Of a stretch of DNA of 40,512 bases, positions 5,254 through 31,707 are shown in pieces. Each line of letters starts with the position of its first letter. The stretch's first letter is position 1. This DNA is from a virus. Made by a program: the position numbers and the translations under genes. The notes below the pieces were generated by a model. It ran no database searches, was not told where the DNA came from, and saw only the letters and a list, made by a program, of their open reading frames with translations. The stretch spans positions 1 through 40,512 of IMG/VR virus record IMGVR_UViG_3300021090_000057. The stretch is one strand, 5' to 3'.

Positions 5254-5765
5254 GGCAGCACATCCTCTCCAGGCGATTTCAGGAACGCCACATAAATATT
5301 TGCGGAGAGATTACTGCTGTTCGTTTGCTGGAGAGCTCCACAGACGGAGATCCTGCTTTCAAATTTCAATTTTTGATCTCCGCTGACGCCATACACACCG
5401 ACCAGGCTGATCACATCATCACCGACTTCGGCGCCATGGAGACTGATGCCCCCCACGCCGCTGAGACCATAGAACTGATATTTTCGATACTTCAACGCTT
5501 CCGCTTCGAGCTGGCTCAATGTTTGGTTGATTCCAAATTGAGGCGCATCCGGTCCTGCCTGAGCGGGATTGTCGTACCACTGCACCAGCAGGATCCCAGC
5601 TGCAACTTTGGCAACCGGATTGATCGTTGTGTCTGCGGTCCAATCTCTACCGGTTGCGCGCTTGATGAAATCGTCGATCTGCGGCAACAGCATCAACATC
5701 ACAGCATCGCTGGTGTCTGTGCGGACAAAATTTGCGCCTTCAGCAGCGGTGAGGATGTTAGTCAT
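5250..5765 (-). CDS. Head-tail connector protein (gp6-like)
   Basis: This 171-residue protein has a helical N-terminal half with QIDDFIKRATGRDWT and VAKVAAGILLVQWYDNPAQ, the arrangement found in gp6-like DNA packaging/connector proteins that form a ring under the portal. The C-terminal half is Ser/Gly rich and longer than in minimal connectors. It directly follows the 86-residue ORF after the coat gene, with its ATG 3 bases after that stop. Confidence 0.8.
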   Translation of the reverse strand: MTNILTAAEGANFVRTDTSDAVMLMLLPQIDDFIKRATGRDWTADTTINPVAKVAAGILLVQWYDNPAQAGPDAPQFGINQTLSQLEAEALKYRKYQFYGLSGVGGISLHGAEVGDDVISLVGVYGVSGDQKLKFESRISVCGALQQTNSSNLSANIYVAFLKSPGEDVLP

Positions 5766-5767
5766 TG

Positions 5768-6028
5768 TTATTCAGCGCCTTTTTTGGATCGCCTTGTAAC
5801 TCTCTCTACAACCTTATCGACGTTTCCAGGAGTTTGATCCGATTTGCCGGGCAAATCGTCAGCCGGGCTTTTCGCCTTTGACTCGATAGGCACTGCCTGG
5901 ATTGGGGGTGCAGGCTCTGGAGGACGGTCGATCACGACCCAGCCCTCCAGCTTATAAGCCTCGACCTTTTCAGGAGGGACGTTCATGCGTCCCTCACCCT
6001 CTTTTTGCATCAGGGCATGATCAGACAT
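5768..6028 (-). CDS. Small protein between coat and connector with a YxxxGWxVI motif
   Basis: This 86-residue protein has a AAGG ribosome site upstream. Residues 12-35 (RMNVPPEKVEAYKLEGWVVI) match in spacing the motif that occurs twice at the N-terminus of the virion protein at 1701-2714. The rest is Pro/Lys rich and disordered-looking. Small proteins in this position are often head decoration or fibre-anchoring proteins. Function is unknown; the shared motif suggests a common binding module. Confidence 0.6.
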   Translation of the reverse strand: MSDHALMQKEGEGRMNVPPEKVEAYKLEGWVVIDRPPEPAPPIQAVPIESKAKSPADDLPGKSDQTPGNVDKVVERVTRRSKKGAE

Positions 6029-11884: not shown

Positions 11885-13813
11885 CTACAACCCAAACTCA
11901 TCCGAATTCACGTACTCCTGGTACCGGGTCTGCTCGCGCAGTGGCTGGATCCGGAACAAACCATCGATGCCGGCAGCCAGCAGGTCCACGCGCTTTGTGT
12001 CGCCGGCGTGTTTCTTCGAAATCATAATATTTTCTTTTGTATCGACAATCTCCTGCGCGTTGCTCACACACCAGGTGAGCAGCGGCGATCCATCGTGTAC
12101 AAGTTTTCCACTGGCTACCGCCTCCCGAAATAATTTTGTTGGCTCATTGAGATTCGGCATCGTCTGCCGCACTTCGATGGTGGTATAGCCCAGATCATCC
12201 AGCTCGTTCTTCAGATGTGTCGCGTTGTATGGATCATAACAAAATTCATGCATCTGCCAGCCATTCAGCGCCGCGTAATGATACTTCAGCAGCCTGGTCA
12301 TTGTTCGTTTTTTTTCTTTTTCATCATCCACAGCCAATTCATCGGCGAGCAGCTTCCCGTTGATGGCTTCGATCTGATCGATCAATGTTTGATAATCGGT
12401 CACATCTCCCTGGGTGATCGTCAGCCAACCGGCTTTCGCCCAATCCCGATAGGGGATCTTGTCTGTTTTCCGGTGTCGATCGACCGCGCCCTCCGGCATG
12501 AATCCGTGAGCTGTGATCCCGATCCGATCATTCGGCAGTGCGAACACATACCCAAGCGCTGTGAGATCGATCTTCTTGGAGAGATCGCCGCCCACGATGC
12601 ACAAGAGTCCGCGCGTCATTCCCAGGAATGCTTCACGCGACACCGCGCATTTGTCCCACTGGCTTTGCTGGCTGCCCTCACCCACCATGTAGTCGCCCAT
12701 GTAGCTGTGCTCATTGCCGTGCTGCCATTTATTTAAGTTCTTGATCCGGAACGAACGGATCTTCTCCGGAATTTTCGAACCGAACGCAGTGTCATGCTGC
12801 TGCTTTAATTTCTCCAACCCTTTCGGGGTGCTCGCGCGCAGTGGATTGGACTTAATCCAATTACGAGGATCGTGCTCATCATCATGCTCATCCATTTCGC
12901 GGATGATGACAAAATAACGTTCGTTTTTCGTCGCGTCGTCTTTATCGCTCACCGCTCCCTCGAGGATCAGCTTGCAGTATTCGTATTCCTGATGACATGG
13001 GCTCTCGACATCATCGCCCGCGGTGGTGATCGTAAAGATCAACGGCTGCGCCCTCTGTCCCTGCGCAGTAGACATCAGATCAAATAATTTGGATGTTGGG
13101 TGAGCATGATACTCATCGATGAATGCACATGACGGATTGAATGAATCTTTGTTCTTGACTTCACCCGAGAAGGCTTTCATTTCGCCACCGCGCGTCCGAT
13201 GGCTCATCTCGTACTTGGCAATGCGTAAGCGTTTGCGAAGGTCCCGGCTTTTTTCTCCCATCGTCATCGAGTAGTTATACAACACGCGCGCCTGGCTGCG
13301 GTCCACTGCCGTGCAATAGACCGAGGGTGATGCCTCCATATCTCCCACCATCATATAGAGTCCAATGCCCGCGCCGCGCGTGGTCTTGGCATTCTTGCGA
13401 GCTTCGGTCACGAATGCCATATTGAATCTGCGCAGGCCTGTTTCACGGCCATTGCTACGCTTGATTTTCTCCAACCTGGAGACCCAGCCGAAAATGCAGC
13501 TCACTTCGAAAACATGGGCGGGAATCAAATCAATCGGCTGCCCCGCAAATTGACCTTCCACGTGTACCAGATGCTTGAACCATTCTTTCGAAACAAAGAT
13601 TGCCTGTTTCTCATCGAAAATCCATTGCCACTCCGGATCGCGCGGCGGGACCGGTCTGCCCGTTGCCTTTTCGATTCGCCTGGCGAGTAATCCCGGCAGC
13701 TGCCCAGCGCTCGCCAGGTCATAAAGATGACGCAAACATGCAAGCTGTTCCCATCTGCCTGTGACGATGGTTTGCTCCACCGCGTTCACTGCATACTGAG
13801 TGGCCGGATGCAT
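11885..13813 (-). CDS. terL: Terminase large subunit
   Basis: This 642-residue ATPase/nuclease motor starts at an ATG with GGAGTAGG upstream. The ATPase domain has a Walker A-type loop ARKNAKTT (residues 138-145) and Walker B CAFIDE (229-234), with an ITTAG coupling motif later. The C-terminal nuclease has GGDLSKKIDLTALG near residue 425 and later acidic clusters. This is the Terminase_1 (HK97-type) family, which translocates DNA into the procapsid and cuts it. It is unusually followed immediately by a repeat array instead of the portal gene. Confidence 0.95.
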   Translation of the reverse strand: MHPATQYAVNAVEQTIVTGRWEQLACLRHLYDLASAGQLPGLLARRIEKATGRPVPPRDPEWQWIFDEKQAIFVSKEWFKHLVHVEGQFAGQPIDLIPAHVFEVSCIFGWVSRLEKIKRSNGRETGLRRFNMAFVTEARKNAKTTRGAGIGLYMMVGDMEASPSVYCTAVDRSQARVLYNYSMTMGEKSRDLRKRLRIAKYEMSHRTRGGEMKAFSGEVKNKDSFNPSCAFIDEYHAHPTSKLFDLMSTAQGQRAQPLIFTITTAGDDVESPCHQEYEYCKLILEGAVSDKDDATKNERYFVIIREMDEHDDEHDPRNWIKSNPLRASTPKGLEKLKQQHDTAFGSKIPEKIRSFRIKNLNKWQHGNEHSYMGDYMVGEGSQQSQWDKCAVSREAFLGMTRGLLCIVGGDLSKKIDLTALGYVFALPNDRIGITAHGFMPEGAVDRHRKTDKIPYRDWAKAGWLTITQGDVTDYQTLIDQIEAINGKLLADELAVDDEKEKKRTMTRLLKYHYAALNGWQMHEFCYDPYNATHLKNELDDLGYTTIEVRQTMPNLNEPTKLFREAVASGKLVHDGSPLLTWCVSNAQEIVDTKENIMISKKHAGDTKRVDLLAAGIDGLFRIQPLREQTRYQEYVNSDEFGL

Positions 13814-16274: not shown

Positions 16275-17246
16275 TTAGCTTGCCATCATTTTCATAAAAG
16301 CATCCACGACATTTGGATCGTAAAGTTCACCGGACTTCGCCTGGATATAGTCCAGAGTGAATTTTTTCGATAACGCAATCCGATAAGGCCGGTTGCTTGT
16401 CATTGCATCGAACACATCCACGACCGTGAACAACCGCGCACACTGCGGGATCTCATATTCTCTCAAACCTCTTGGATAACCGCTTCCATTCCACAATTCA
16501 TGATGACAGTAGGGAATATCCAGCGCGCACCCCTGCAGAAACTTGATTGGAAAAAGGATTGTATAAGCAATCTGTGGATGCAGCTGCATTAATTCAATCT
16601 CCTCAAGATCCAGCTTGCCAGGTTTATGCAGGATGGCATCCGAGACAGCCATCTTGCCTATATCATGCAAGAGCGCACCGCGCCGGAATCCAATTAACTC
16701 GCTGTCTCTGAAATCCATTGCCCGTGCCAGCTTATCAGCCAAGCCTACGAGACGGAGAGAATGACCAACTGTTTCTTTGTCACGGAATTCCAATGCCCTT
16801 GACCAGCTCTGCAACGTCTGATCATAAACTTGCAGGACTTCAGCGTTAGCCTTTCCAAGTTTATGGATAAGTTTTTTTTGCATCGTGGTGTTTTGAAACA
16901 CAGAGACAAAAGTGTCCTGCTCAAACGAATACACTGAAATGTCGAACCACATTTCAAGTTCAGGGAGATACTGCTCAAAACGCTCATGCCGTTGTGTCCT
17001 TGCTACACGCGCATAAGTTTCCAGTAGGAGTGGATTGCTTTTATGGATCCCGGGAATCACTTCGGAAACTTGCCTATTCACCACATCTTTCAGTCCGGTT
17101 TGTAATTCAAATGCCGGGTTGACAGAAATATATTTCCAATCCACCGCCTTTTCCCCATCATAAATGATCTGACAATAAGCCAGACCGTCGATCATGTGCT
17201 CGAACAAAACTTTGTGCAGATGGCCGTTTGGTTTATTAAATGGCAT
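16275..17246 (-). CDS. PAS/HD-GYP phosphodiesterase-like protein
   Basis: I place the start at the ATG at 17246 (MPFNKPNGHLHKVLFEHM), because a terminator-like hairpin occupies 17296-17327; the longer frame from 17336 would begin before it. The 323-residue product has a PAS-like sensor (residues about 10-120: LAYCQIIYD, YISVNPAFELQTGL) and an HD-GYP domain with LLHDIGKMAVSDAILHKPG (HD at 194-195) and HHELWNGSGYP (248-258). All key metal-binding residues look intact. HD-GYP enzymes hydrolyse cyclic di-GMP or cGAMP. The domain is rare in phages and pairs here with a GGDEF-type protein at 28138-28662. Confidence 0.85.
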   Translation of the reverse strand: MPFNKPNGHLHKVLFEHMIDGLAYCQIIYDGEKAVDWKYISVNPAFELQTGLKDVVNRQVSEVIPGIHKSNPLLLETYARVARTQRHERFEQYLPELEMWFDISVYSFEQDTFVSVFQNTTMQKKLIHKLGKANAEVLQVYDQTLQSWSRALEFRDKETVGHSLRLVGLADKLARAMDFRDSELIGFRRGALLHDIGKMAVSDAILHKPGKLDLEEIELMQLHPQIAYTILFPIKFLQGCALDIPYCHHELWNGSGYPRGLREYEIPQCARLFTVVDVFDAMTSNRPYRIALSKKFTLDYIQAKSGELYDPNVVDAFMKMMAS

Positions 17247-17268
17247 TGATGATGATCCGTTTACTTCC

Positions 17269-17327
17269 GAACAGACCTGCTCCAACATTAAAAAGGGACA
17301 GACCTCATAAAGAGAGCAGGTCTGTCC
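17269..17327 (-). terminator. Terminator/attenuator hairpin ahead of the HD-GYP gene
   Basis: On the minus strand, GGACAGACC (17327-17319) pairs perfectly with GGTCTGTCC (17304-17296) and is followed by five T (17294-17290): a rho-independent terminator. The same 5' arm, extended to 14 bases (17327-17314), can instead pair with GAGCAGGTCTGTTC (17282-17269) with one G-U pair. Two mutually exclusive folds suggest regulated read-through into the HD-GYP gene. Confidence 0.65.
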
Positions 17328-17386
17328 ACTTCGCATTCTAATGCATTATCAAGACAAGGCAATAGGCGATTAGGTTACAGTTTTTG

Positions 17387-17754: not shown

Positions 17755-18273
17755 CTACTTCTTCGCGATTTTCAAGCCTTCATCGTATGCGCTTCGAAGC
17801 CGCTTGAAATCATTCTCATCACCACCAGCATCCGGATGATGGACCTTCGATAGCGCCCGAAACGCGTTTCTGATATCCGCCTTGGATGCGTCAGGCTTTA
17901 CACCAAGAATTTCATACCAGGGAGATTTGCCGCTCCCCAGCATCAGCACACTATCATCAGGCGTCGCAATAAAGCCCGCGAAGACACTATCGAACTCCTC
18001 ATCGAAGGATGTCTCACTCATGTCCACGCCATAAAGCTCAAGCGCGCGGTAGAGAAAATCGATTTGAAGTCCGATCGCACGCAGGTTGTCAATTGAGTCT
18101 TCCCAACGCGTGCACTCACGTACATAACGCCTGCCGGTACGATCAAAGATGACCTTCACTCCCCCACCCATCACGTCCTGCTCGATGCGCAGTGACGTGG
18201 CTCCGATCTTGGTCATGATCCTTTGAAGATCTTTGACTGTTGTTTGTTGTGTTGCTGAAAATCTACGAGCCAT
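17755..18273 (-). CDS. J-domain protein 1
   Basis: This 172-residue protein has an N-terminal region of unknown type (residues 1-105) and a C-terminal J-domain: SPWYEILGVKPDASKADIRN, then HPD at 146-148 and a last helix DENDFKRLRSAYDEGL. J-domains stimulate host DnaK ATPase, and the HPD tripeptide is essential and present. Phage J-domain proteins can recruit Hsp70 to replication or assembly complexes. It overlaps the upstream gene start by a few bases. A second J-domain protein is at 19936-20397. Confidence 0.85.
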   Translation of the reverse strand: MARRFSATQQTTVKDLQRIMTKIGATSLRIEQDVMGGGVKVIFDRTGRRYVRECTRWEDSIDNLRAIGLQIDFLYRALELYGVDMSETSFDEEFDSVFAGFIATPDDSVLMLGSGKSPWYEILGVKPDASKADIRNAFRALSKVHHPDAGGDENDFKRLRSAYDEGLKIAKK

Positions 18274-19564: not shown

Positions 19565-19939
19565 TCACTTCGCATGCCCGTTGAATTGCGACAGTCCCAG
19601 GGATGTGAGAACTGCCGAAGCAGCATACTCACCCGTTTCGAGCGCATTCACCGCGCGCAGTTCCGCATCCGCTTTGTGAAGTGCTGCCTGAGCTTCATCC
19701 CGTTGTTTGATGATCTTCGCCTTGATGGCTTTCAGTTTTGCGCCACTGGCTTTGACCAATGCCACATGCGCGGTCACCGACTCAGGCAGATGAATGCCCA
19801 CATATTTCGCCGCGCCATTATCAGCATACGAATACCAATATGGACCATGCCCATCGCCGGTGTTGCATTTGCAGCCCGGCTTTCCACACTTCCGATACTG
19901 CTGGCGATATTGCACGCCATTAACTTTGATATCACTCAT
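19565..19939 (-). CDS. DUF6788-like zinc-binding protein
   Basis: This 124-residue protein begins MSDIKVNGVQYRQQYRKCG and has the family signature YRKCGKPGCKC followed by HGPYWYSY, then YVGIHLPE. The four Cys suggest a zinc knuckle. The second half is a charged helix. DUF6788 proteins occur on mobile elements and have no known function. It overlaps the J-domain gene upstream by 4 bases. Confidence 0.75.
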   Translation of the reverse strand: MSDIKVNGVQYRQQYRKCGKPGCKCNTGDGHGPYWYSYADNGAAKYVGIHLPESVTAHVALVKASGAKLKAIKAKIIKQRDEAQAALHKADAELRAVNALETGEYAASAVLTSLGLSQFNGHAK

Positions 19940-20397
19940 GGTTGCACCATCCTTAGAGCAAGTTGATAATATTCTTGCAGGTTCAAAAACCCTTCGTGAG
20001 TTCCGCCCGTGTCGGGATGTTCTTTCAGTGCGGCTTCGTGATATGCGCGTTTCACGTCCTCAACAGTGGCTTCTCTTGTCAACCCCAAGACTTTTAGACA
20101 ATCAGGGATATAAGCACTCCACTCTGCCCGCTTTAGATCGTATTGCCTTTTCCCCTCCTCGGTCTGAAAGTGTACACACCATGTTCCATCGTGCCAATAA
20201 ACCCCTCCTTCGGCTTCGAGTTTGGCGCGGTCTAATCTCATGGTTTTGTGCCACGGTCCTCCGTAGGTATATTCAACGAAAACACATTTCTTTGTTTTTT
20301 TCAGGATGCGATACGCCCGCCATTCGTCAGGGACGCGGCTATCATCGTGATCCATGTGCCACTCATAAAGAAATTCAGTTGCTTGGGTTGCGTTCAT
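19936..20397 (-). CDS. J-domain protein 2
   Basis: This 153-residue protein has an N-terminal region with several strands (YTYGGPWHKTMRLDRAKLE) and a C-terminal J-domain: CLKVLGLTREATVEDVKRAY, HPD at residues 127-129, then a last helix FLNLQEYYQLALRMV. The N-terminal part is unlike that of J-domain protein 1. Having two different J-domain proteins suggests that engaging host DnaK matters in the early phase. Confidence 0.85.
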   Translation of the reverse strand: MNATQATEFLYEWHMDHDDSRVPDEWRAYRILKKTKKCVFVEYTYGGPWHKTMRLDRAKLEAEGGVYWHDGTWCVHFQTEEGKRQYDLKRAEWSAYIPDCLKVLGLTREATVEDVKRAYHEAALKEHPDTGGTHEGFLNLQEYYQLALRMVQP

Positions 20398-20897: not shown

Positions 20898-21860
20898 TTA
20901 CCGAAAGAGTCTGAGTTGCTTGTATTCGGTTTTTTGGATGAGTTGGGCATACTTCAATCGCTTTCCCGCAACCATCGAAAGCACTTCGGTAAACCGTGTG
21001 CTGTCGTTGCCACGTCTATTATTGAATCGGAATGTTTGCTCATCAAGATAACGAAACAGATGAGCCGCTTCACAACTTACATAAGTCCCGCGAAGGGAAC
21101 GCTTGAACAAAGACCAGTAATTTTCAATGCCATTCGTGTGAATGTTTCCCTTCACGTATTCGGTAGCATGGTCAATGCTTTCATGGATGAATTCATCCAT
21201 GCCGTTATAGGATTGCAGGGCATCCGTGAAAAGGTTAGAACCTGCTTCAACGCTCTTTCGGATTTCGGGTTGCAGGGTTTTCTTCTTGGTGTTTCTCACC
21301 ACTTTTGTTTTTACCTTGCTGGATTTATCCCCCGCGTTCCTTTCCAACAGACCAAACACAATAGCCTTACCAACCGTCCCGCGCCCTTGAACTCCCATTG
21401 CTTCGCGCTTCCACTTGTGCATGTTTTCAGCCTTGCCGCCTATGTAGGTTTCATCGGCTTCAACTTCGCCACTCAGGGTTTCAAATGTTCCCGATTGCAT
21501 AGCCAAGCGGATGCGATGCAACATAAACCAAGCGGTCTTTTGAGTCACTCCAAGAGCGCGGGCAATCTCGCACGAGCTAATACCGTTCTTCGCATTGGCA
21601 ATCATCCAAACACAGGGAAGCCATTTATTCAAGCCGATAGGACTATTCTCGAAGATCGTACCGACCTTGACGCTAAACTGCTTCTTGCAGGCTTTACACT
21701 TCCAAGTTTGGCGGGTGGTCAGATATGAGTGTTCTTTGCCTCCACACTTGGGGCATACAACCCCATCAGACCAACGCAGGCTTACAAGATAGTCATGCGC
21801 TACGTCTTTATCGGCAAAGTAGATTATGGCTTGCTGTAGTGTTTGCGGTTTGTCAGTCAT
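20898..21860 (-). CDS. IS1595-family transposase
   Basis: The likely start is the ATG at 21860 (MTDKPQTLQQAIIYFAD), which overlaps the previous stop and has AAAAGG upstream. The 320-residue protein has an N-terminal zinc ribbon (CPKC at 36-39, CKAC at 55-58), an HTH (ISSCEIARALGVTQKTAW), and an ISXO2-type DDE-like domain: EADETYIGG (D136), LFTDALQSY (D213) and NGIENYWSLFKR (N243/E246). All expected blocks are intact, so it is probably active. Confidence 0.93.
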   Translation of the reverse strand: MTDKPQTLQQAIIYFADKDVAHDYLVSLRWSDGVVCPKCGGKEHSYLTTRQTWKCKACKKQFSVKVGTIFENSPIGLNKWLPCVWMIANAKNGISSCEIARALGVTQKTAWFMLHRIRLAMQSGTFETLSGEVEADETYIGGKAENMHKWKREAMGVQGRGTVGKAIVFGLLERNAGDKSSKVKTKVVRNTKKKTLQPEIRKSVEAGSNLFTDALQSYNGMDEFIHESIDHATEYVKGNIHTNGIENYWSLFKRSLRGTYVSCEAAHLFRYLDEQTFRFNNRRGNDSTRFTEVLSMVAGKRLKYAQLIQKTEYKQLRLFR

Positions 21861-22170
21861 CAGGGTGTAACCTTTTCCAAATTTCATTTACTATGAGTTT
21901 CGGTTCTTCTGGTTTAGGCTGTTCTTCTGTTTCCAGATCAGGATTTATTTCTTTGAGAAACTTTCTATTGACTCTTGACTTGGAAGCGTACAAGCAATTC
22001 AAGGCACGTATTATCAACTGGAAATCTTTACGGGCATCACCTGTAAGAAAAGACTCGAACACTTCGCGTTCGCCTTTGTATGCTCGAAACTTCTTGTTGA
22101 ATTCTGGTTCGGGGGCGGGTTTTCGTCCCGCCCCTTCTCTCTTGCCACCATGCGTTTTTTTGTTCATCAT
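21853..22170 (-). CDS. IS passenger: GGKREGAGRK-type DNA-binding-like protein
   Basis: This 105-residue protein starts MMNKKTHGGKREGAGRK, an N-terminal motif common in small mobile-element proteins that look DNA-binding, followed by a helical core (DFQLIIRALNCLYASKSR) and a C-terminal acidic/proline tail. It overlaps the transposase start. Function unknown. Confidence 0.65.
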   Translation of the reverse strand: MMNKKTHGGKREGAGRKPAPEPEFNKKFRAYKGEREVFESFLTGDARKDFQLIIRALNCLYASKSRVNRKFLKEINPDLETEEQPKPEEPKLIVNEIWKRLHPDD

Positions 22171-22923: not shown

Positions 22924-23600
22924 TCTTCCTCGCTTTCAGCATCGTCATGCTGCGGTCTTGGAATTCCCTTGATTTCTTCGAGCCAGGACCGCGGCATCTC
23001 GTTGTTCTGAATCCGTATAATTGCCAAGCCTAGTCTTTCACCATCTCGCAGATCGCCGACATGCGCCTTGATCAATTCAGGACTGACATGCTCCAGGAGA
23101 GAGATCTGGGATGCCTTCGGTTCTCCAATCATCACAGATTGGCACATCGCCAAATTTTTCCCAAATGTCACGCCATGGGTCAAATAGAGCGTTGAAGGAG
23201 TGCCAGGTCGCGGAATTTCCGCGACCTGGGTGTCTACTACTACTACTGAATCTATTAATCTATTACTTAAGTCTATAGTAGTAGTAGTAGTAGTAGGGCC
23301 AGAACGCGGAATTTCCGCGACCTGGAATTTGGCGGTTTCCAATTTTGGCTGTGTGAAACCTGGCAAAAGGTCTGCCCCGGGGATCCATAAGACCCGTCCA
23401 TGTGCGGCAATCTGCTTTCCGATGAGTCCCATGCCCTTGAGCTGCTTCAGCCCGTCGCGTGCGGTTTCCTGGTTGAGACCGGTCCACGTGCGGACTTCAT
23501 CCAGATCTAAAGCGGCTCGGGCGAATAGGAAAGCCAAAACGATCTGCGCAAGACTGCCCTTGGTTGAACGCACCATTAAGATTTGATGATCTGTGGACAT
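22920..23600 (-). CDS. Winged-helix protein, candidate replication initiator containing the origin
   Basis: The ATG at 23600 (MSTDHQILMVRSTKGSLA) gives 226 residues. Residues about 15-75 look like a winged helix (LDLDEVRTWTGLNQETARDG, LKGMGLIGKQIAAHGRVLWI). The middle (residues 93-131) has the peptide QVAEIPR twice, flanking a Thr run and an LSNRLIDSVVVV stretch. The DNA under this part carries two 27-bp palindromes and an A/T-rich centre, as in lambda-like phages whose origin lies within the initiator gene. The C-terminus is acidic. No recognised initiator family, so the role is inferred from origin-like DNA and position. Confidence 0.55.
   Translation of the reverse strand: MSTDHQILMVRSTKGSLAQIVLAFLFARAALDLDEVRTWTGLNQETARDGLKQLKGMGLIGKQIAAHGRVLWIPGADLLPGFTQPKLETAKFQVAEIPRSGPTTTTTTIDLSNRLIDSVVVVDTQVAEIPRPGTPSTLYLTHGVTFGKNLAMCQSVMIGEPKASQISLLEHVSPELIKAHVGDLRDGERLGLAIIRIQNNEMPRSWLEEIKGIPRPQHDDAESEEE
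23203..23325. other. Candidate replication origin inside the winged-helix gene
   Basis: Two palindromes of 27 bp centred 96 bp apart (23203-23229, perfect, half CCAGGTCGCGGAA; 23299-23325, two changes) flank a segment with (CTA)4 (23234-23245), an A/T-rich stretch and (TAG)7 (23276-23296). Iteron-like palindromes around an A/T-rich, hairpin-forming core inside a DNA-binding protein gene fit an origin. Confidence 0.55.
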
Positions 23601-24369: not shown

Positions 24370-24810
24370 TCAGCTCCTGAAATAATCCACTAGCCACTGC
24401 TCAACTAGATAAAGACTCAGCCCAAACCAAATAATAACTATGGCTTTCGCCACAAGCCACTCAATGTCATTTGGAAGTGCCCACATGAGACCGAAGGGGA
24501 TCCCACTGCCAAATAAACTGATCATGACCAACGCAGCCTGTCGTTTTATTTCGTAGGCTGCACTTTGGGCTATTTCCTCATGTTCCTCAAAATATCCAAT
24601 CGGTTTCGGCCATCTTCCGATTCTGTTGTGTTTGCTATGGTTGCAAAATTCACAGGCTGTTACAAGATTGTCGATTGATGTTTCACCACCTTTGCTGAAC
24701 GGATACACATGATCAGCATGAAATGGTCCATCTTTATCTCCGCAATAACGGCAGGTGTAGTTGTCTCGTTCAAATACCCTTTTCCGGATTTCTGGATCCA
24801 TACGTTTCAT
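24370..24810 (-). CDS. HNH endonuclease with C-terminal membrane segments
   Basis: The ATG at 24810 (MKRMDPEIRKRVFERDNY) overlaps the previous stop (TGATG); an earlier ATG at 24828 is less likely. The N-terminal half is a classic HNH domain: CRYCG, ADHVYPFSKGG, NLVTACEFCNHSKHNR. The C-terminal half has two hydrophobic segments (ALVMISLFGSGIPFGLMWAL and LVAKAIVIIWFGLSLYLV). A membrane-anchored HNH nuclease is unusual and might act on incoming DNA. Confidence 0.75.
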   Translation of the reverse strand: MKRMDPEIRKRVFERDNYTCRYCGDKDGPFHADHVYPFSKGGETSIDNLVTACEFCNHSKHNRIGRWPKPIGYFEEHEEIAQSAAYEIKRQAALVMISLFGSGIPFGLMWALPNDIEWLVAKAIVIIWFGLSLYLVEQWLVDYFRS

Positions 24811-24989
24811 CAGATCACCTTGATCCATACAGATTTTCGTTTCTTCGCTTTTGGTTTGACGTGGCGCTTTTTCGGTGCCGTGCGTTTGACGACCAGGCGA
24901 TAGCCTTTCAGCTTGGGACGGACAATGGCATACACCAGGAAGAGCGCCAGCGCAGCCAGGATTCCAAGGAGGAGGTAGAACCCAAACAT
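24810..24989 (-). CDS. Small membrane protein with basic tail
   Basis: The 59-residue product starts MFGFYLLLGILAALALFLVY, a single hydrophobic helix, followed by a strongly basic tail rich in Lys/Arg (KRTAPKKRHVKPKAKKRK). The topology suggests a membrane anchor with a nucleic-acid- or lipid-facing tail. It overlaps the HNH gene start. Function unknown. Confidence 0.5.
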   Translation of the reverse strand: MFGFYLLLGILAALALFLVYAIVRPKLKGYRLVVKRTAPKKRHVKPKAKKRKSVWIKVI

Positions 24990-25103: not shown

Positions 25104-25186
25104 CTACTACTACTACCCAGCCACAGCGTCTGAATCGGGCGAAATATGCCTGTTTTCAGTAGTAGTAGTAGTAGTAGTAGTAGTAG
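25104..25186. repeat. (CTA)4 ... (TAG)9 inverted trinucleotide repeat at the end of the FtsK-like gene
   Basis: (CTA)4 at 25104-25115 and (TAG)9 at 25160-25186 flank 44 bases and can form a hairpin. The left block supplies the stop codon of the gene. The arrangement repeats the one at 23234-23296. Confidence 0.7.
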
Positions 25187-26423
25187 AGGTTAAATACTCA
25201 ATTACCTGATCAACCTTTCGGCACCAGGAGTTACCTGCATAAGCCTTTCCTAATAGCTGAGACACTTTGCTTTTGCTCATCGACGGAAACCATTGCTCAC
25301 GGATTGATCCTGCCAATTGGATGATCTCGCTACCTTCTGGCAGTATCTCCATAACAATCGGCAGATGTTCATGCATCTCCACGTCGACCGTTGCAGCTTG
25401 CGCGCTGACCAGCTGGCGGACCGCATCCGAGACCGGCGGATAGATCACCTGGAAAGATTGGAACTCGATCAGCTTGCCTTTCCAACTGATCAGTCCGCGT
25501 CCCAGCACATCCGGCAGCGCTTCTGCACCCTTGTAACCCAGCATCGTCACGCTGTCGTTGTGATGAGGCACGCGGAACGCAACCCGCGTCGAGAGATTGG
25601 TCTTCGCAAACATCTCCGCCTGGGTGGGTTGGTTCGTGGCAATGATCGGATAGAGTCCCACATAGCGGTAAATGCGGATCATCTGCTTGAGCAGGATCTT
25701 GACGCTATCGGGCAGGTCCGCAGCTTCATCCACGAACAGAGCCACCGGCAGAATGAGATCGTTGGGATGGTGCTCATTGTGATCCCAGATATTCACGCAT
25801 CCGCTCCTGGCTAGTTGCTGTTCACGTTCTGCGAACAAAGTCTGCAGCGCTTCGAACTCCTCCGCCTTGAGCATCAGATGGAAGTTTGGCTGATCTGCAT
25901 AGCGCATGAATTCAATGGAATGTTTTCCGTCCCAGGCGTACACGAGCGTTTTGCCTCCGTGCAGCAGTGCCTGGATCCATGCATGCTCTTCACCGGTCTT
26001 GCCCATGCCAGTGGAGCCACCGATCAGGAACGAGATCCCACCCATGAGCGGGATCCATAACGGACCATTCTCGGTCATGCCTACCGGCAAATGCCAGGCA
26101 GAGGTTTGCTGTGAGAAGTCCAGTGCAACCGATGCATCGAGCGCGATCGGCACACGCGGCGTTTCAAGCCCCACCTGCAGGAAGAGCCCGCGTGTATTTG
26201 TGCGAACGACTCTGCGACCCTCGAGCCGCGTGGAAAGGTCATGGATAAAGCCCTCATTGACCCGCTCCAGTTTGATGGCAGCCGGATCAAACGCCACGAT
26301 GATTCGGTTGCTTCTCTGCCACAGATAGAACACGGTGCCGGTGGTGTAGTGCATAGCCTTGGTCTGGATCAACAGGTTCAGCGTTTTGAACGCCACCCGC
26401 TGGATAAAATCATTGGTCATCAT
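25113..26423 (-). CDS. FtsK/TraB-like DNA translocase ATPase
   Basis: This 436-residue protein has Walker A GGSTGMGKT (135-143) and Walker B LPVALFVDEA (about 226-235), then TNQPTQAEMF in the sensor region, the pattern of FtsK-type motor domains. A small HTH-like region (SKSKVSQLLGKAYAG) and a Thr run precede the end. There is no N-terminal membrane domain; instead it overlaps a membrane lipoprotein gene. FtsK-like motors move double-stranded DNA in plasmid transfer and in some phages. Role here unknown; it may work with the neighbouring membrane proteins. Confidence 0.8.
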   Translation of the reverse strand: MMTNDFIQRVAFKTLNLLIQTKAMHYTTGTVFYLWQRSNRIIVAFDPAAIKLERVNEGFIHDLSTRLEGRRVVRTNTRGLFLQVGLETPRVPIALDASVALDFSQQTSAWHLPVGMTENGPLWIPLMGGISFLIGGSTGMGKTGEEHAWIQALLHGGKTLVYAWDGKHSIEFMRYADQPNFHLMLKAEEFEALQTLFAEREQQLARSGCVNIWDHNEHHPNDLILPVALFVDEAADLPDSVKILLKQMIRIYRYVGLYPIIATNQPTQAEMFAKTNLSTRVAFRVPHHNDSVTMLGYKGAEALPDVLGRGLISWKGKLIEFQSFQVIYPPVSDAVRQLVSAQAATVDVEMHEHLPIVMEILPEGSEIIQLAGSIREQWFPSMSKSKVSQLLGKAYAGNSWCRKVDQVIEYLTSTTTTTTTTTENRHISPDSDAVAG

Positions 26424-27400
26424 TTTGTTTCAATCTCCTTCCAGTCCTGGTCGAGCACCGTGATGATGTCGCCATTGATGACGTTCAGATCACTGGTATC
26501 ACCGTCCAGAACTTTGTATCGGTTTTCCAGGTTGGAGGCAGACAATTGTTTCATCATTGCCTGTCCCGCCAGTTGTTTTTGTTGTTTCGTCTCGGACGCG
26601 GAAGCTGGAAGACCACGTGTTGCAAGATCGATCATCTGATCCCGCTCAGTGGTTGCATCCTGGCGCACGGCAGTGACTGCCGGCAGTTGAGGTGGCACTC
26701 CGAACTTCTTCTCCACCCAGAATGCGAGCATCCTCGCAAGCACATCATTGGAGATCGATCCTCGATAATTGGGGCTGCGGTCAATATCTGTAAAGCTGCC
26801 CTGGACGATATCCAACAATGGCACAACGTTACCGCGCGCATCCACCTTCGCCGGTTGATATCGCTGCCAGCGACTGGTCCACATCAGGACAATGGCCAGC
26901 GAGAGGACCACAATGAAAAATGCGTATCCAGGCAACTTGCCCTGGAAGTCGTTGATGGCCTTTTGTCGTTCCAATCTCAGATCGTCTTCGATGGCCTGAT
27001 TAGCCATCTGTGTGCCCTGTGCATTCAGCAGCGCGAATGCCGCGGTAGATGTGGCATTCGGTGTGGGGGTCCAATAACTGGCAGTCTGTGTGGCTGCTGC
27101 GACCTGCGTCTCCTGGATGCTCTGTGCGGTCACTGTCCAGTATTGCTGCTGGATTGCCATCGCTGCGACCGTCTCTGTGATGTGCATAATGGGCGCTCCC
27201 GCAGTGGCAGTCAAGGCTTGTTCCTGCCATTGGGCCTGCTGAAGTGCGGCATTGGCGGTCATCCGGTTGCCATTGGCGCCAGTGTAGAGATCACCGCCTG
27301 GCATTTGATCGTAAGGGACTGCGGGAACACATGCCGCGAAAGCAGCGACCCCGAATAAGAGCAATATGAGGATGAGAATTTTCGCGTGAGCGTAGTGCAT
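26420..27400 (-). CDS. Lipoprotein with internal transmembrane segment
   Basis: This 326-residue protein begins MHYAHAKILILILLLFGVAA and reaches AAFAAC, a lipobox-like end of a signal peptide. A long Ala/Gln/Thr-rich extracellular-like region (residues 40-160) is followed by a membrane segment near residues 160-180 (YAFFIVVLSLAIVLMW) and a cytoplasmic-type C-terminal domain. It overlaps the FtsK-like gene by 4 bases, so the two products may form a membrane complex. No family recognised. Confidence 0.6.
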   Translation of the reverse strand: MHYAHAKILILILLLFGVAAFAACVPAVPYDQMPGGDLYTGANGNRMTANAALQQAQWQEQALTATAGAPIMHITETVAAMAIQQQYWTVTAQSIQETQVAAATQTASYWTPTPNATSTAAFALLNAQGTQMANQAIEDDLRLERQKAINDFQGKLPGYAFFIVVLSLAIVLMWTSRWQRYQPAKVDARGNVVPLLDIVQGSFTDIDRSPNYRGSISNDVLARMLAFWVEKKFGVPPQLPAVTAVRQDATTERDQMIDLATRGLPASASETKQQKQLAGQAMMKQLSASNLENRYKVLDGDTSDLNVINGDIITVLDQDWKEIETK

Positions 27401-27411
27401 AATGTCCGTCC

Positions 27412-27843
27412 TTATTTCCTCAACCAGGGGAAGAGTTCTTCCACCGGTGAATCTTCCACATCCTGAGTCTGCGCAGGCAACGCCGGTGATGGTGGATTCA
27501 ACGCTCGCAGAGATCGAAGCAGCTCCAACTGCACCAGGTCATTGATCGTCAACTGCGGACCATCGCGCGGAGCAGTCATTGAGCGTTGAGAATGAGCTGC
27601 TGCTGGCTGACTTCTGCGTTTGTAAATAATCCAGAGCACGCCCGCGATCAGCATCAGCACAAAGATAATCACAAGTGTCAGCGTCAGGATCGTGATCAGA
27701 TTCCCCCAGGCTGAAACCTGTGCGACCTTGGCTGTCTCGATCTGTGCCTGGGCCTGTTGGGCCGTCGCATAAGATTGCGCGCTTGAAGAGACCCCGGAGA
27801 TGACCACGATGATCAGTAAAACAATGATCACAATATAGAGCAT
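27412..27843 (-). CDS. Membrane protein with two hydrophobic segments
   Basis: The 143-residue product begins MLYIVIIVLLIIVVISGVSS, then a Gln/Ala helix, a second segment (ITILTLTLVIIFVLMLIAG) and a basic KRRSQP stretch before a Pro-rich C-terminus. It is directly downstream of a zinc-ribbon gene and precedes the lipoprotein gene. The three membrane proteins and the ATPase form one tight operon. Function unknown. Confidence 0.55.
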   Translation of the reverse strand: MLYIVIIVLLIIVVISGVSSSAQSYATAQQAQAQIETAKVAQVSAWGNLITILTLTLVIIFVLMLIAGVLWIIYKRRSQPAAAHSQRSMTAPRDGPQLTINDLVQLELLRSLRALNPPSPALPAQTQDVEDSPVEELFPWLRK

Positions 27844-27844
27844 C

Positions 27845-28144
27845 TCAGTCTCCCTCTCCCAGAATCATTTCCAAAGTCATTTGTCGAATCGGTTGATAAG
27901 ATTTCCACGCCCCGTTCCCAGGGAATGGGTCCTGGCGTGCAGTGCCGTTTTCGCGGAGTCGCTTCTGAGCGGCTTTGATATCACCGTCGAAATATTTATC
28001 TGCCAGCCCATGCAGACCTAAGTGACCCAGGAAGCTGTGATAGACACGGCCCTGCATCGACGCTCCACACCGTGGACAAAAGTCCGGAGCGGGCTTGCTG
28101 ATGACTGCCTTACCGCCCATTGATTGGATTTTTCTTTTTAGCAT
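27845..28144 (-). CDS. Hypothetical protein with single CPRCG motif
   Basis: The 99-residue product begins MLKRKIQSMGGKAVISKPAP and holds FCPRCGASMQGRVYHSFLGH, a zinc-ribbon-like half with His as possible further ligands. The C-terminal half is helical. Its ATG lies inside the end of the GGDEF gene, after the shared leader AAGGAGATCTACCAC, so the last codons of the upstream gene are the ribosome site of this one. Confidence 0.55.
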   Translation of the reverse strand: MLKRKIQSMGGKAVISKPAPDFCPRCGASMQGRVYHSFLGHLGLHGLADKYFDGDIKAAQKRLRENGTARQDPFPGNGAWKSYQPIRQMTLEMILGEGD

Positions 28145-28662
28145 GTGGTAGATCTCCTTTCTGCGCCGCGCGCCTCCTTGGTAAGAAACATTTTGTGGAT
28201 GGCCGGTTCCAGGTTGACATCCAGATCCGGAGAGATCACAGGCACGATGGCAAAGATCGCGGTCAAATTTTGCTTTTTCAGCTCGGCAATCAAGCGTTGC
28301 ATTATTACTTCTGGATCGAGCGTCTGACGCAGATCGCCGATTAATAGCGAATCGCCCTCGATGAGACAGACTAGAAATTCATCTCCTGAGTTAAGCTGGC
28401 CCGCTACATAATCGGTCAATCGCAGGATCGACAGGACCTGCTTCATCATGGCATCGAAAGTTGCGTAATCTCTGTGTGCTTTGTTTATGTCGTGCACGCC
28501 ATCGACATCAAAAAAAATGATCCAGCGGGCACGGTCCGCAATCTCGGGCCAGATTAGTTTTTTGAATCCGGCCTTGCTATAACATCCAAACGCGTCATTC
28601 CAGGCTAGCTCCCGGATCAGTGCGTCTGATTCTTCTTGAGTTCGTATTTTTTGTGGGAACAT
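28138..28662 (-). CDS. Small GGDEF-type protein (SGDEF), possible diguanylate cyclase
   Basis: This 174-residue single-domain protein begins MFPQKIRTQEESDALIREL. The order WNDAFGCYSKAGFKKL, WIIFFDVDGVHDIN (metal Asp52 and Asn60), RLTDYVAG and NSGDEFLVCL (92-96) follows the GGDEF fold. The signature is SGDEF, a variant found in some active cyclases, and the FKxxND stretch is changed to VHDIN. An RxxD (RLTD) precedes the signature but is 2 residues too far to be a normal inhibitory site. It has no sensor domain. A role in making cyclic dinucleotide, or as a signal-binding decoy, is inferred. Confidence 0.7.
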   Translation of the reverse strand: MFPQKIRTQEESDALIRELAWNDAFGCYSKAGFKKLIWPEIADRARWIIFFDVDGVHDINKAHRDYATFDAMMKQVLSILRLTDYVAGQLNSGDEFLVCLIEGDSLLIGDLRQTLDPEVIMQRLIAELKKQNLTAIFAIVPVISPDLDVNLEPAIHKMFLTKEARGAERRSTTC

Positions 28663-29111: not shown

Positions 29112-29969
29112 ATGAATGACGATCTCGAAAACTTCCTCGCTTCCAATCCCTATTCGGATTCAACACTTCGCACCTATCGAGACATTCTGAGGCGCATCTT
29201 CGCAAGGAGCCAAGATCTCGCGAAGATGACAGCCTCAGAACTACTAACTATTTTGAAGCAAAGCAGTTGGGGAAACGCTCGCCAGTGTCTTGCATTGGCA
29301 GCGACACAAAAATTTCTTTCGTGGAAATATGGACATGCACATCCCGCCTTGATCGCCAAGCTGAAACGTATCCAGGGGAAGCCGCAAAGGTCGCTCGATC
29401 CTGAAACCGCCCTGAAGCTGCTTGCCTCGTTTGACCCCTACGCCGCAAAAGGTGCCCGAGATCTCGCAATATGTTCACTCGTGCTGGATACTGGTCTGCG
29501 AGAGTCTGAAATTTGCAGACTGCAACAGGCATACACAAATCTTGAGCATCGCACATTGCAAGTCATCGTGAAAGGCGGTCAGTGGGAGGCGGCAATCTTT
29601 GGCGAAGCGACTGCCATGCGGATTGATCGTTGGATGTCGTTCCGTAAGATTGCCGATGGTCAGGGCTTTCTATTCACGCATGTTCAAACAGGAAAAGGGC
29701 TTACGCCCGAGGGACTCTATTCGATTGCCAGGGAATGGGGTCGGAAGATTGGCATACAGCTTTGTTTTCACGACCTGCGCCGTTCGACGGCTGTGATGGG
29801 TGTCTTGAATGGCTTATCTGAACGCGCCATGATGGAGCTGTATCGCTGGAAATCGTCTACGATGATCAAGCGTTACACCAGGAATCTTAGATTGGAGCAA
29901 CTTAGACAATTTCTGGTGGTAGATAGCCTTCTCAAGCTTCCTCCGCCTGATGACCAAGAAAAGGTATAA
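29112..29969 (+). CDS. int: Tyrosine integrase
   Basis: This 285-residue site-specific recombinase begins MNDDLENFLASNPYSDSTLR with AGGTGAAA upstream. Its catalytic domain has Arg130 (TGLRESEI), Lys154 (VKGGQ), HDLRR (His220, Arg223), Trp246 in place of the second His, and nucleophile Tyr255 (KRYTR). The N-terminal SAM-like domain (residues 1-90) is compact, and no arm-binding domain is obvious. The attP candidate lies 30 bases after its stop. It integrates and, with an excisionase-like partner, excises the prophage. Confidence 0.93.
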   Translation: MNDDLENFLASNPYSDSTLRTYRDILRRIFARSQDLAKMTASELLTILKQSSWGNARQCLALAATQKFLSWKYGHAHPALIAKLKRIQGKPQRSLDPETALKLLASFDPYAAKGARDLAICSLVLDTGLRESEICRLQQAYTNLEHRTLQVIVKGGQWEAAIFGEATAMRIDRWMSFRKIADGQGFLFTHVQTGKGLTPEGLYSIAREWGRKIGIQLCFHDLRRSTAVMGVLNGLSERAMMELYRWKSSTMIKRYTRNLRLEQLRQFLVVDSLLKLPPPDDQEKV

Positions 29970-30489: not shown

Positions 30490-30987
30490 TCACCCTCTTG
30501 GGATCCATGCCAGGAAAAGGATGAGCAAAACAATAACTGGTAGAAGAAATAAGGCAATCCTTTCCAAACGAACAAACCTCTTGACAATCGGGGTGTTTTT
30601 TTCAATGGCTTGCAGAATTGCACTGATGTACATGGATTCCATTTCTTCGTCGTTCATGTTTTGAAAAGTTTCCGTCAACTGTTTCCAGACCGCATTTAAT
30701 GGTGGATACACATAAACGGGCCACATTCCTGCGATGCACACGATGATGAGCGCGAGATAGAGCAGAGCGATCACGATTAGCACACCCTGGTAAACAGGCA
30801 GCCAGGTAGCAGAGATCGGCTTGGTAAAAAGCTGAAGTGCGCCGATCAGAGAAACGATCAAACTAGATGAGCCGAATATCGTCTTGATCGTTGCCTTGAT
30901 CGAATCGATGCCATTCGATTGACCCTGATACATCCGCTGCATTTCGATGAGTGGAAAGTCGAGATAAGAATGTTTTGTTGTAGTCAT
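30490..30987 (-). CDS. Membrane protein with three hydrophobic segments
   Basis: The ATG at 30987 (MTTTKHSYLDFPLIEMQRMY) has AAAGGAG 6 bases upstream. The 165-residue product has hydrophobic segments near residues 40-58, 68-92 and 145-163, with a soluble stretch containing NMNDEEMESMYISAILQAIE between the second and third. It lies in the lysogeny region beside hicBA, where phages often keep exclusion or superinfection-immunity membrane proteins. No family recognised. Confidence 0.55.
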   Translation of the reverse strand: MTTTKHSYLDFPLIEMQRMYQGQSNGIDSIKATIKTIFGSSSLIVSLIGALQLFTKPISATWLPVYQGVLIVIALLYLALIIVCIAGMWPVYVYPPLNAVWKQLTETFQNMNDEEMESMYISAILQAIEKNTPIVKRFVRLERIALFLLPVIVLLILFLAWIPRG

Positions 30988-31010
30988 GTGCAACTCCTTT
31001 AGGACTCAAT

Positions 31011-31265: not shown

Positions 31266-31478
31266 ATGACTCAGACTCTCACTGCCATCCTCCACAAAGA
31301 AGATGATCTGTACGTAGCCGATTGCCCTGAAGTGGGGACCGTCAGCCAGGGACCAACTGTCGAAGAAGCGATTGCTAATCTCAGAGAAGCGACTGAACTT
31401 TATCTTGAAGAATTCCCACTCCCCGAAATAAACCATCCGTTATTGACCACCTTCGAGGTGGCGATAACCCATGCCTAA
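31266..31478 (+). CDS. hicB: HicB-type antitoxin
   Basis: This 70-residue protein has the partial RNase H-like HicB fold: LTAILHKEDDLYVADCPEVG, then TVEEAIANLREATELYLEEF. HicB neutralises HicA and represses the operon; the DNA-binding part is missing in this short form, so operator binding may need HicA or another protein. Its end overlaps hicA by 8 bases. The start has AAGGAGATCTACCAA upstream. Confidence 0.85.
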   Translation: MTQTLTAILHKEDDLYVADCPEVGTVSQGPTVEEAIANLREATELYLEEFPLPEINHPLLTTFEVAITHA

Positions 31479-31707
31479 TCTTCCGCACCTATCGGGTCGG
31501 GAAATTATTCGCGCGCTCGAGCGCCTTGGCTTTGTGCAGGCCCGCCAGCGCGGCAGCCACGTGGTCCTGAAGAAGTCCACGCCAGAGGGAACTGTAGGTT
31601 GCGTAGTGCCATTGCATAGCGAAGTAGCAATCGGGACTTTGCGCAGCATTCTCAAACAGGCTCATGTTTCAGCAGAAGAATTTATCCAGGCAGTGAAGGA
31701 GGGTTAG
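31471..31707 (+). CDS. hicA: HicA-type mRNA interferase toxin
   Basis: This 78-residue protein follows the HicA (YcfA) pattern: LSGREIIRALERLGFVQARQ, then RGSHVVLKK with the catalytic His in GSH, and VVPLHSEVAIGTLRSILKQA. HicA cleaves mRNA when free of HicB. The antitoxin-first gene order is common in phages. It ends 10 bases before repeat array F. Confidence 0.87.
   Translation: MPNLPHLSGREIIRALERLGFVQARQRGSHVVLKKSTPEGTVGCVVPLHSEVAIGTLRSILKQAHVSAEEFIQAVKEG

Follow-up and report, generated by a model that had tools for sequence, protein, structure and literature searches.

A divergent mini-GGDEF protein of a temperate phage and its suggestive association with a phage HD-GYP protein

Phages sequester or destroy bacterial nucleotide signals. 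The locus described here raises the question of whether a phage might also make one: a small reading frame with the landmarks of a GGDEF diguanylate cyclase lies in a viral contig of 40,512 nucleotides, referred to in the following as the window. We call the protein and its relatives mini-GGDEF. The features discussed are collected in Table 1.

Table 1. Coordinates of the discussed features in the window
Feature	Position	Strand	Support
Terminase large subunit (phrog_9), phage backbone marker	11885..13813	-	PHROGs match
HD-GYP protein, 353 aa, proposed hydrolase partner	16275..17336	-	HD_5 1e-28; HDIGK and HHExxxGxGYP intact
Zinc-ribbon-like gene, 99 aa, directly downstream of mini-GGDEF, 7-base overlap	27845..28144	-	Weak Pfam only
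Mini-GGDEF protein, 174 aa, single-domain, SGDEF signature	28138..28662	-	ORF, profiles, fold
SGDEF signature codons (residues 92–96)	28376..28390	-	Computed from ORF; SGDE invariant in seven relatives
Tyrosine integrase, divergent from mini-GGDEF operon	29112..29969	+	Phage_integrase 1.4e-20 (Pfam)

The phage and the mini-GGDEF locus

The window corresponds to a virus record of IMG/VR, in which a PHROGs search detected terminase, major head protein and integrase; this supports the description of the gene as phage-encoded. Long minus-strand open frames, probably parts of a tape-measure gene, occupy both contig ends; as the reading frame is not continuous across the two ends, we take the contig to be probably near-complete but not closed. 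Terminase and transposase were of no help in naming a host, their matches all being below 60% identity and scattered over many taxa. The transposase-like gene, of the IS1595 family (20898–21887; annotated matches up to 43% identity), is an insertion in the phage. The window also encodes two separate DnaJ-domain proteins (17755–18273 and 19936–20397), an HNH endonuclease domain (1.9e-13) followed by hydrophobic stretches (24370–24828) and, by inspection alone, a HicB/HicA-like pair of two adjoining small ORFs on the plus strand (31266–31707). On the plus strand, triplet runs of the GTGGTG type (23200–23330 and 25110–25210) correspond to poly-Thr stretches of two phage proteins read from the minus strand. 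An Rfam search for riboswitches gave none; its sole match was mir-230, far below the gathering score.

The mini-GGDEF gene was found at the position given by the first-pass annotation, coding on the minus strand; across the same interval, several stops interrupt the plus strand. All four landmarks that had been read from it are present in the order expected of GGDEF proteins: FFDVD (residues 50–54), DIN (58–60), RLTD (81–84) and SGDEF (92–96). A strong Shine–Dalgarno sequence, ccAAGGAGatctaccaatATG, precedes the ORF.

The gene belongs to a row of leftward genes next to the divergent integrase, and we infer an early-region position for it. The zinc-ribbon-like gene also lies downstream of mini-GGDEF in L006 and G010. 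Another contig, G012, whose terminase is 90% identical to that of the window, keeps the order of integrase and zinc-ribbon-like gene but lacks mini-GGDEF in the interval; mini-GGDEF is therefore an accessory gene. A short ORF precedes it in L002, L008 and L009; Pfam marks this ORF as HTH-like in L008 and, weakly, in L002. Further along, an FtsK/SpoIIIE-like ATPase (phrog_1358, 3.6e-19) and two predicted membrane proteins form a gene row (25113–27843) that G010 and G012 share; G005 also has the membrane protein encoded at 26420–27400. In L009, a member of the 8xMP octameric membrane protein family (4.8e-14; 5382–5903) is encoded about 2 kb from the mini-GGDEF gene.

Mini-GGDEF is a divergent GGDEF family

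Searched alone, the window protein gave nothing significant in Pfam, PHROGs or PADLOC, and a PF00990 search of the window gave no match. Scans of viral contigs in IMG/VR recovered relatives 38–54% identical to it (L002, L003, L006, L007, L008 and L009), all with SGDE invariant, so that the landmarks go beyond chance. Additional relatives were L010, which is cut off, the distant L004 and one member in G010. A three-member profile (A1) reached DosC at 4e-4, while a seven-member profile (A3) had DosC as its best match at 7.6e-7, plus about 30 GGDEF structures and mostly GGDEF proteins thereafter. The GGDEF model itself, proposed as a check by the first-pass annotation, matched five of the seven members (best 1.5e-6), the window member taken alone giving no match. 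The silence of the window protein in Pfam is explained by the weakness of a single divergent sequence as a query, a problem that the family profile solved.

An AlphaFold model of mini-GGDEF (pLDDT 77, pTM 0.72) superimposed on GGDEF domains with Z scores of 13–14.7, SadC giving Z 14.7 and an rmsd of 2.3 over 134 residues. The best 50 structure matches listed were all GGDEF proteins, in agreement with Foldseek, and neither Cas10 nor mCpol appeared among the matches listed. The non-cyclase fold that had been named as grounds for rejecting the assignment thus did not appear, and profile and model together back the description of a single-domain GGDEF-type protein. We conclude that mini-GGDEF is a divergent GGDEF family. 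It shares with the diguanylate cyclases DosC, SadC and PleD (PF00990) the fold, the motif order, the metal acids, the guanine-site Asn, the RxxD and the C-terminal Lys, but differs from them in having SGDE with two inserted residues, a His or Asn in place of a lysine, no sensor domain and a phage as carrier.

Small proteins of this kind had been called rare in phages. This holds for the mini-GGDEF family, for which 50,697 phage records gave a single weak match. GGDEF proteins of other phages exist: those of Bacillus phage G (gp350), SP-15 and Bordetella phage CN1 matched the mini-GGDEF model in fold, yet at 12–18% identity, and the search of the phage collection did not link them to it by sequence. 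In two scans, sequenced genomes confirmed no mini-GGDEF relative and hence gave neither a prophage copy nor a host; a search of plasmids found none. GGDEF cyclases also occur on another type of mobile element, genomic islands and ICEs (PMC10672970); these elements are non-phage and the protein is a different one.

The fold common to mCpol and GGDEF proteins (PMC12657218) brings up a defence role carried by the prophage, in which the cyclase would act with a membrane effector as in Panoptes. Like mini-GGDEF, the mCpol protein OptS of that system is small and single-domain, with a cyclase fold related to that of PleD, and a protein of 167 aa containing two hydrophobic stretches is encoded 2 kb away (30490–30993). 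On the other hand, mCpol is nearly without the GGDEF motif whereas the mini-GGDEF family keeps SGDE, no mCpol or effector model was matched, no effector was recognised, and the 167-aa protein lacks a homologue in the other mini-GGDEF contigs compared. We consider such a system very improbable. The absence of mCpol among the Pfam and PADLOC results for the seven members is still compatible with a distant kinship.

Active-site residues and the case for catalysis

Active-site residues were mapped by sequence alignment only, through the DosC alignment and PleD numbering. Across the seven sequences D52, D54, N60, R81, D84, S92, G93, D94, E95 and K162 were invariant. By PleD numbering, we take D52 and D94 to be the metal acids, N60 and D70 to be guanine contacts, and R81 and D84 to form the RxxD pair. 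The position of D70 is D or N in the family, and the lysine of DxDxFK is replaced by H or N. Other departures from the consensus were a Ser where the first Gly would be, the absence of the Asp that follows N60, a two-residue insertion before SGDE and a variable F96. An enrichment of invariant columns in the active site (p 4e-4) was kept out of the argument because the positions had been picked after the alignment was seen.

A serine at the first signature position has been found in both active and inactive proteins. The SGDEF proteins ECA3270 and MbaA are reported to be active, whereas in VCA0965 a serine at this position abolished activity (PMC3974145, PMC8079147). Both active proteins are cellular and do not belong to the mini-GGDEF family, and MbaA has sensor and EAL-type domains. 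Because some SGDEF proteins are active, catalysis by mini-GGDEF is plausible as judged from its residues.

The same departures, including the loss of the lysine, would also suit a degenerate GGDEF protein that does no catalysis and binds GTP or c-di-GMP, at the active site or the RxxD site, to act as a receptor or to regulate either the early operon or a host protein. The RxxD is invariant, and degenerate GGDEF proteins do serve as c-di-GMP receptors (PMC3974145). However, the C-terminal lysine, the Asn of the guanine site and the two metal acids are all invariant, residues that a protein acting only as a receptor could do without, and we regard this explanation as somewhat unlikely.

The HD-GYP protein and possible roles in the host

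The most informative piece of context for mini-GGDEF is the HD-GYP protein of the same phage, encoded 11 kb away. Homologues occur in the mini-GGDEF contigs G002, G005, G007 and G010. Six mini-GGDEF contigs are 30 kb or longer (G000, G002, G004, G005, G007 and G010), and five of them have an HD-GYP gene, G004 being the exception. The 168-kb G003, with only the distant relative L004, had no HD-GYP match. All the HD-GYP proteins compared (window, G002, G005, G007 and G010) retain intact HD and HHExxxGxGYP motifs. Their N-termini vary: PAS-like in the window, where the domain is weakly supported (PAS_8 0.015, below the cut-off), receiver-like by inspection in G002, G007 and G010, and none in G005.

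The contigs with both genes are otherwise diverse. Their large terminases belong to phrog_9 (window), phrog_38 (G005 and G007) and phrog_2 (G002), and that of G010 is 92% identical to the window's. When compared with the 42 window genes, G002 had in common only mini-GGDEF and HD-GYP, plus weak matches for an integrase and a fibre, and G007 only mini-GGDEF, HD-GYP and one more. The presence of both genes in one phage and in otherwise unrelated phages suggests that these phages adjust the internal signalling of their hosts.

Both genes might instead be common cargo of the phages of one host group or habitat and not work together. HD-GYP genes occur without mini-GGDEF in G012, in the fragments G011, G016 and G035 and in eight further contigs, G004 shows the reverse, and the association gave a Fisher p of 0.12 over ten contigs of at least 30 kb. 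Set against this are the three terminase families with nearly unrelated backbones and the rarity of HD-GYP in the phage collection (28 of 50,697 records, in a collection where the hosts differ; 27 of the 28 carry only the name 'Bacteriophage sp.' or uncultured). Such a coincidence seems to us rather unlikely, and the association is suggestive, with host or kinship bias as a possible contributor. A hypergeometric figure against 2.9 million contigs was not counted as evidence because kinship and host were uncontrolled and the scans reach close relatives only. G036 has HD-GYP and, within a frame of 393 aa, a GGDEF match; it was excluded because this may be bacterial DNA from the flank.

The explanation that we prefer, tentatively and at slightly less than an even chance, is that mini-GGDEF is a minimal, sensor-less GGDEF-family cyclase of a temperate phage, encoded by an integrase-side accessory gene, which with the HD-GYP protein shifts the host's cyclic-dinucleotide level. 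Mini-GGDEF would dimerise, bind GTP and make a cyclic dinucleotide, most likely c-di-GMP and possibly a mixed one, and the separately controlled HD-GYP protein would hydrolyse such molecules. The two would thus form a phage-borne module, mini-GGDEF making or sensing cyclic dinucleotides and HD-GYP removing them, that may act in infection or lysogeny. The GGDEF profile and fold, the invariant D52, N60, G93, D94, E95, K162 and RxxD, the co-occurrence with HD-GYP and the active SGDEF proteins all speak for this explanation. Against it stand the lost lysine and Asp, the insertion, the variable F96, the result with VCA0965, the distance between the genes, G004, the HD-GYP genes found alone and the Fisher value. 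In a bolder version, several unrelated temperate phages assembled the same two-part controller, an unregulated, phage-specific mini-cyclase of possibly mixed specificity and a sensor-gated HD-GYP, steering host state or the choice between lysis and lysogeny; this we hold to be doubtful.

The HD-GYP protein could also serve counter-defence by destroying the cyclic nucleotides of host immunity, with mini-GGDEF binding such signals or flooding the cell with a decoy. For jumbo phages, HD-GYP proteins are predicted to act on cyclic nucleotides in this way (PMC7824862), and phage sponges and decoy nucleotides exist (PMC12657218), but a cyclase would be an unusual anti-defence protein. We hold this role to be quite improbable. 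In contrast to those of the jumbo phages, the HD-GYP proteins here are found in temperate phages, on contigs of about 40–60 kb, with PAS or receiver-like N-termini and alongside mini-GGDEF.

Phage GGDEF and phage HD-GYP proteins were each known already; a literature search of incomplete coverage found no paper describing the pairing in phages, and the pairing of HD-GYP with the mini-GGDEF family appears to be new. If the preferred explanation is true, a phage would have make-type and break-type proteins, in otherwise unrelated genomes, and phages would actively set a cyclic-dinucleotide messenger. Mini-GGDEF would then illustrate the extent of divergence that a working GGDEF domain tolerates, and both proteins are small and directly testable.

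Two further observations concern the contigs compared. L018 and L019 have HD-GYP genes 84% identical to that of the window, with one in-frame TAA in the matched stretch. Two large terminases, both full-length, are encoded in the 67.7-kb record G004 (L027 and L033), with 87% and 80% identity to that of the window; the record is either two adjoining prophages or a joined contig.
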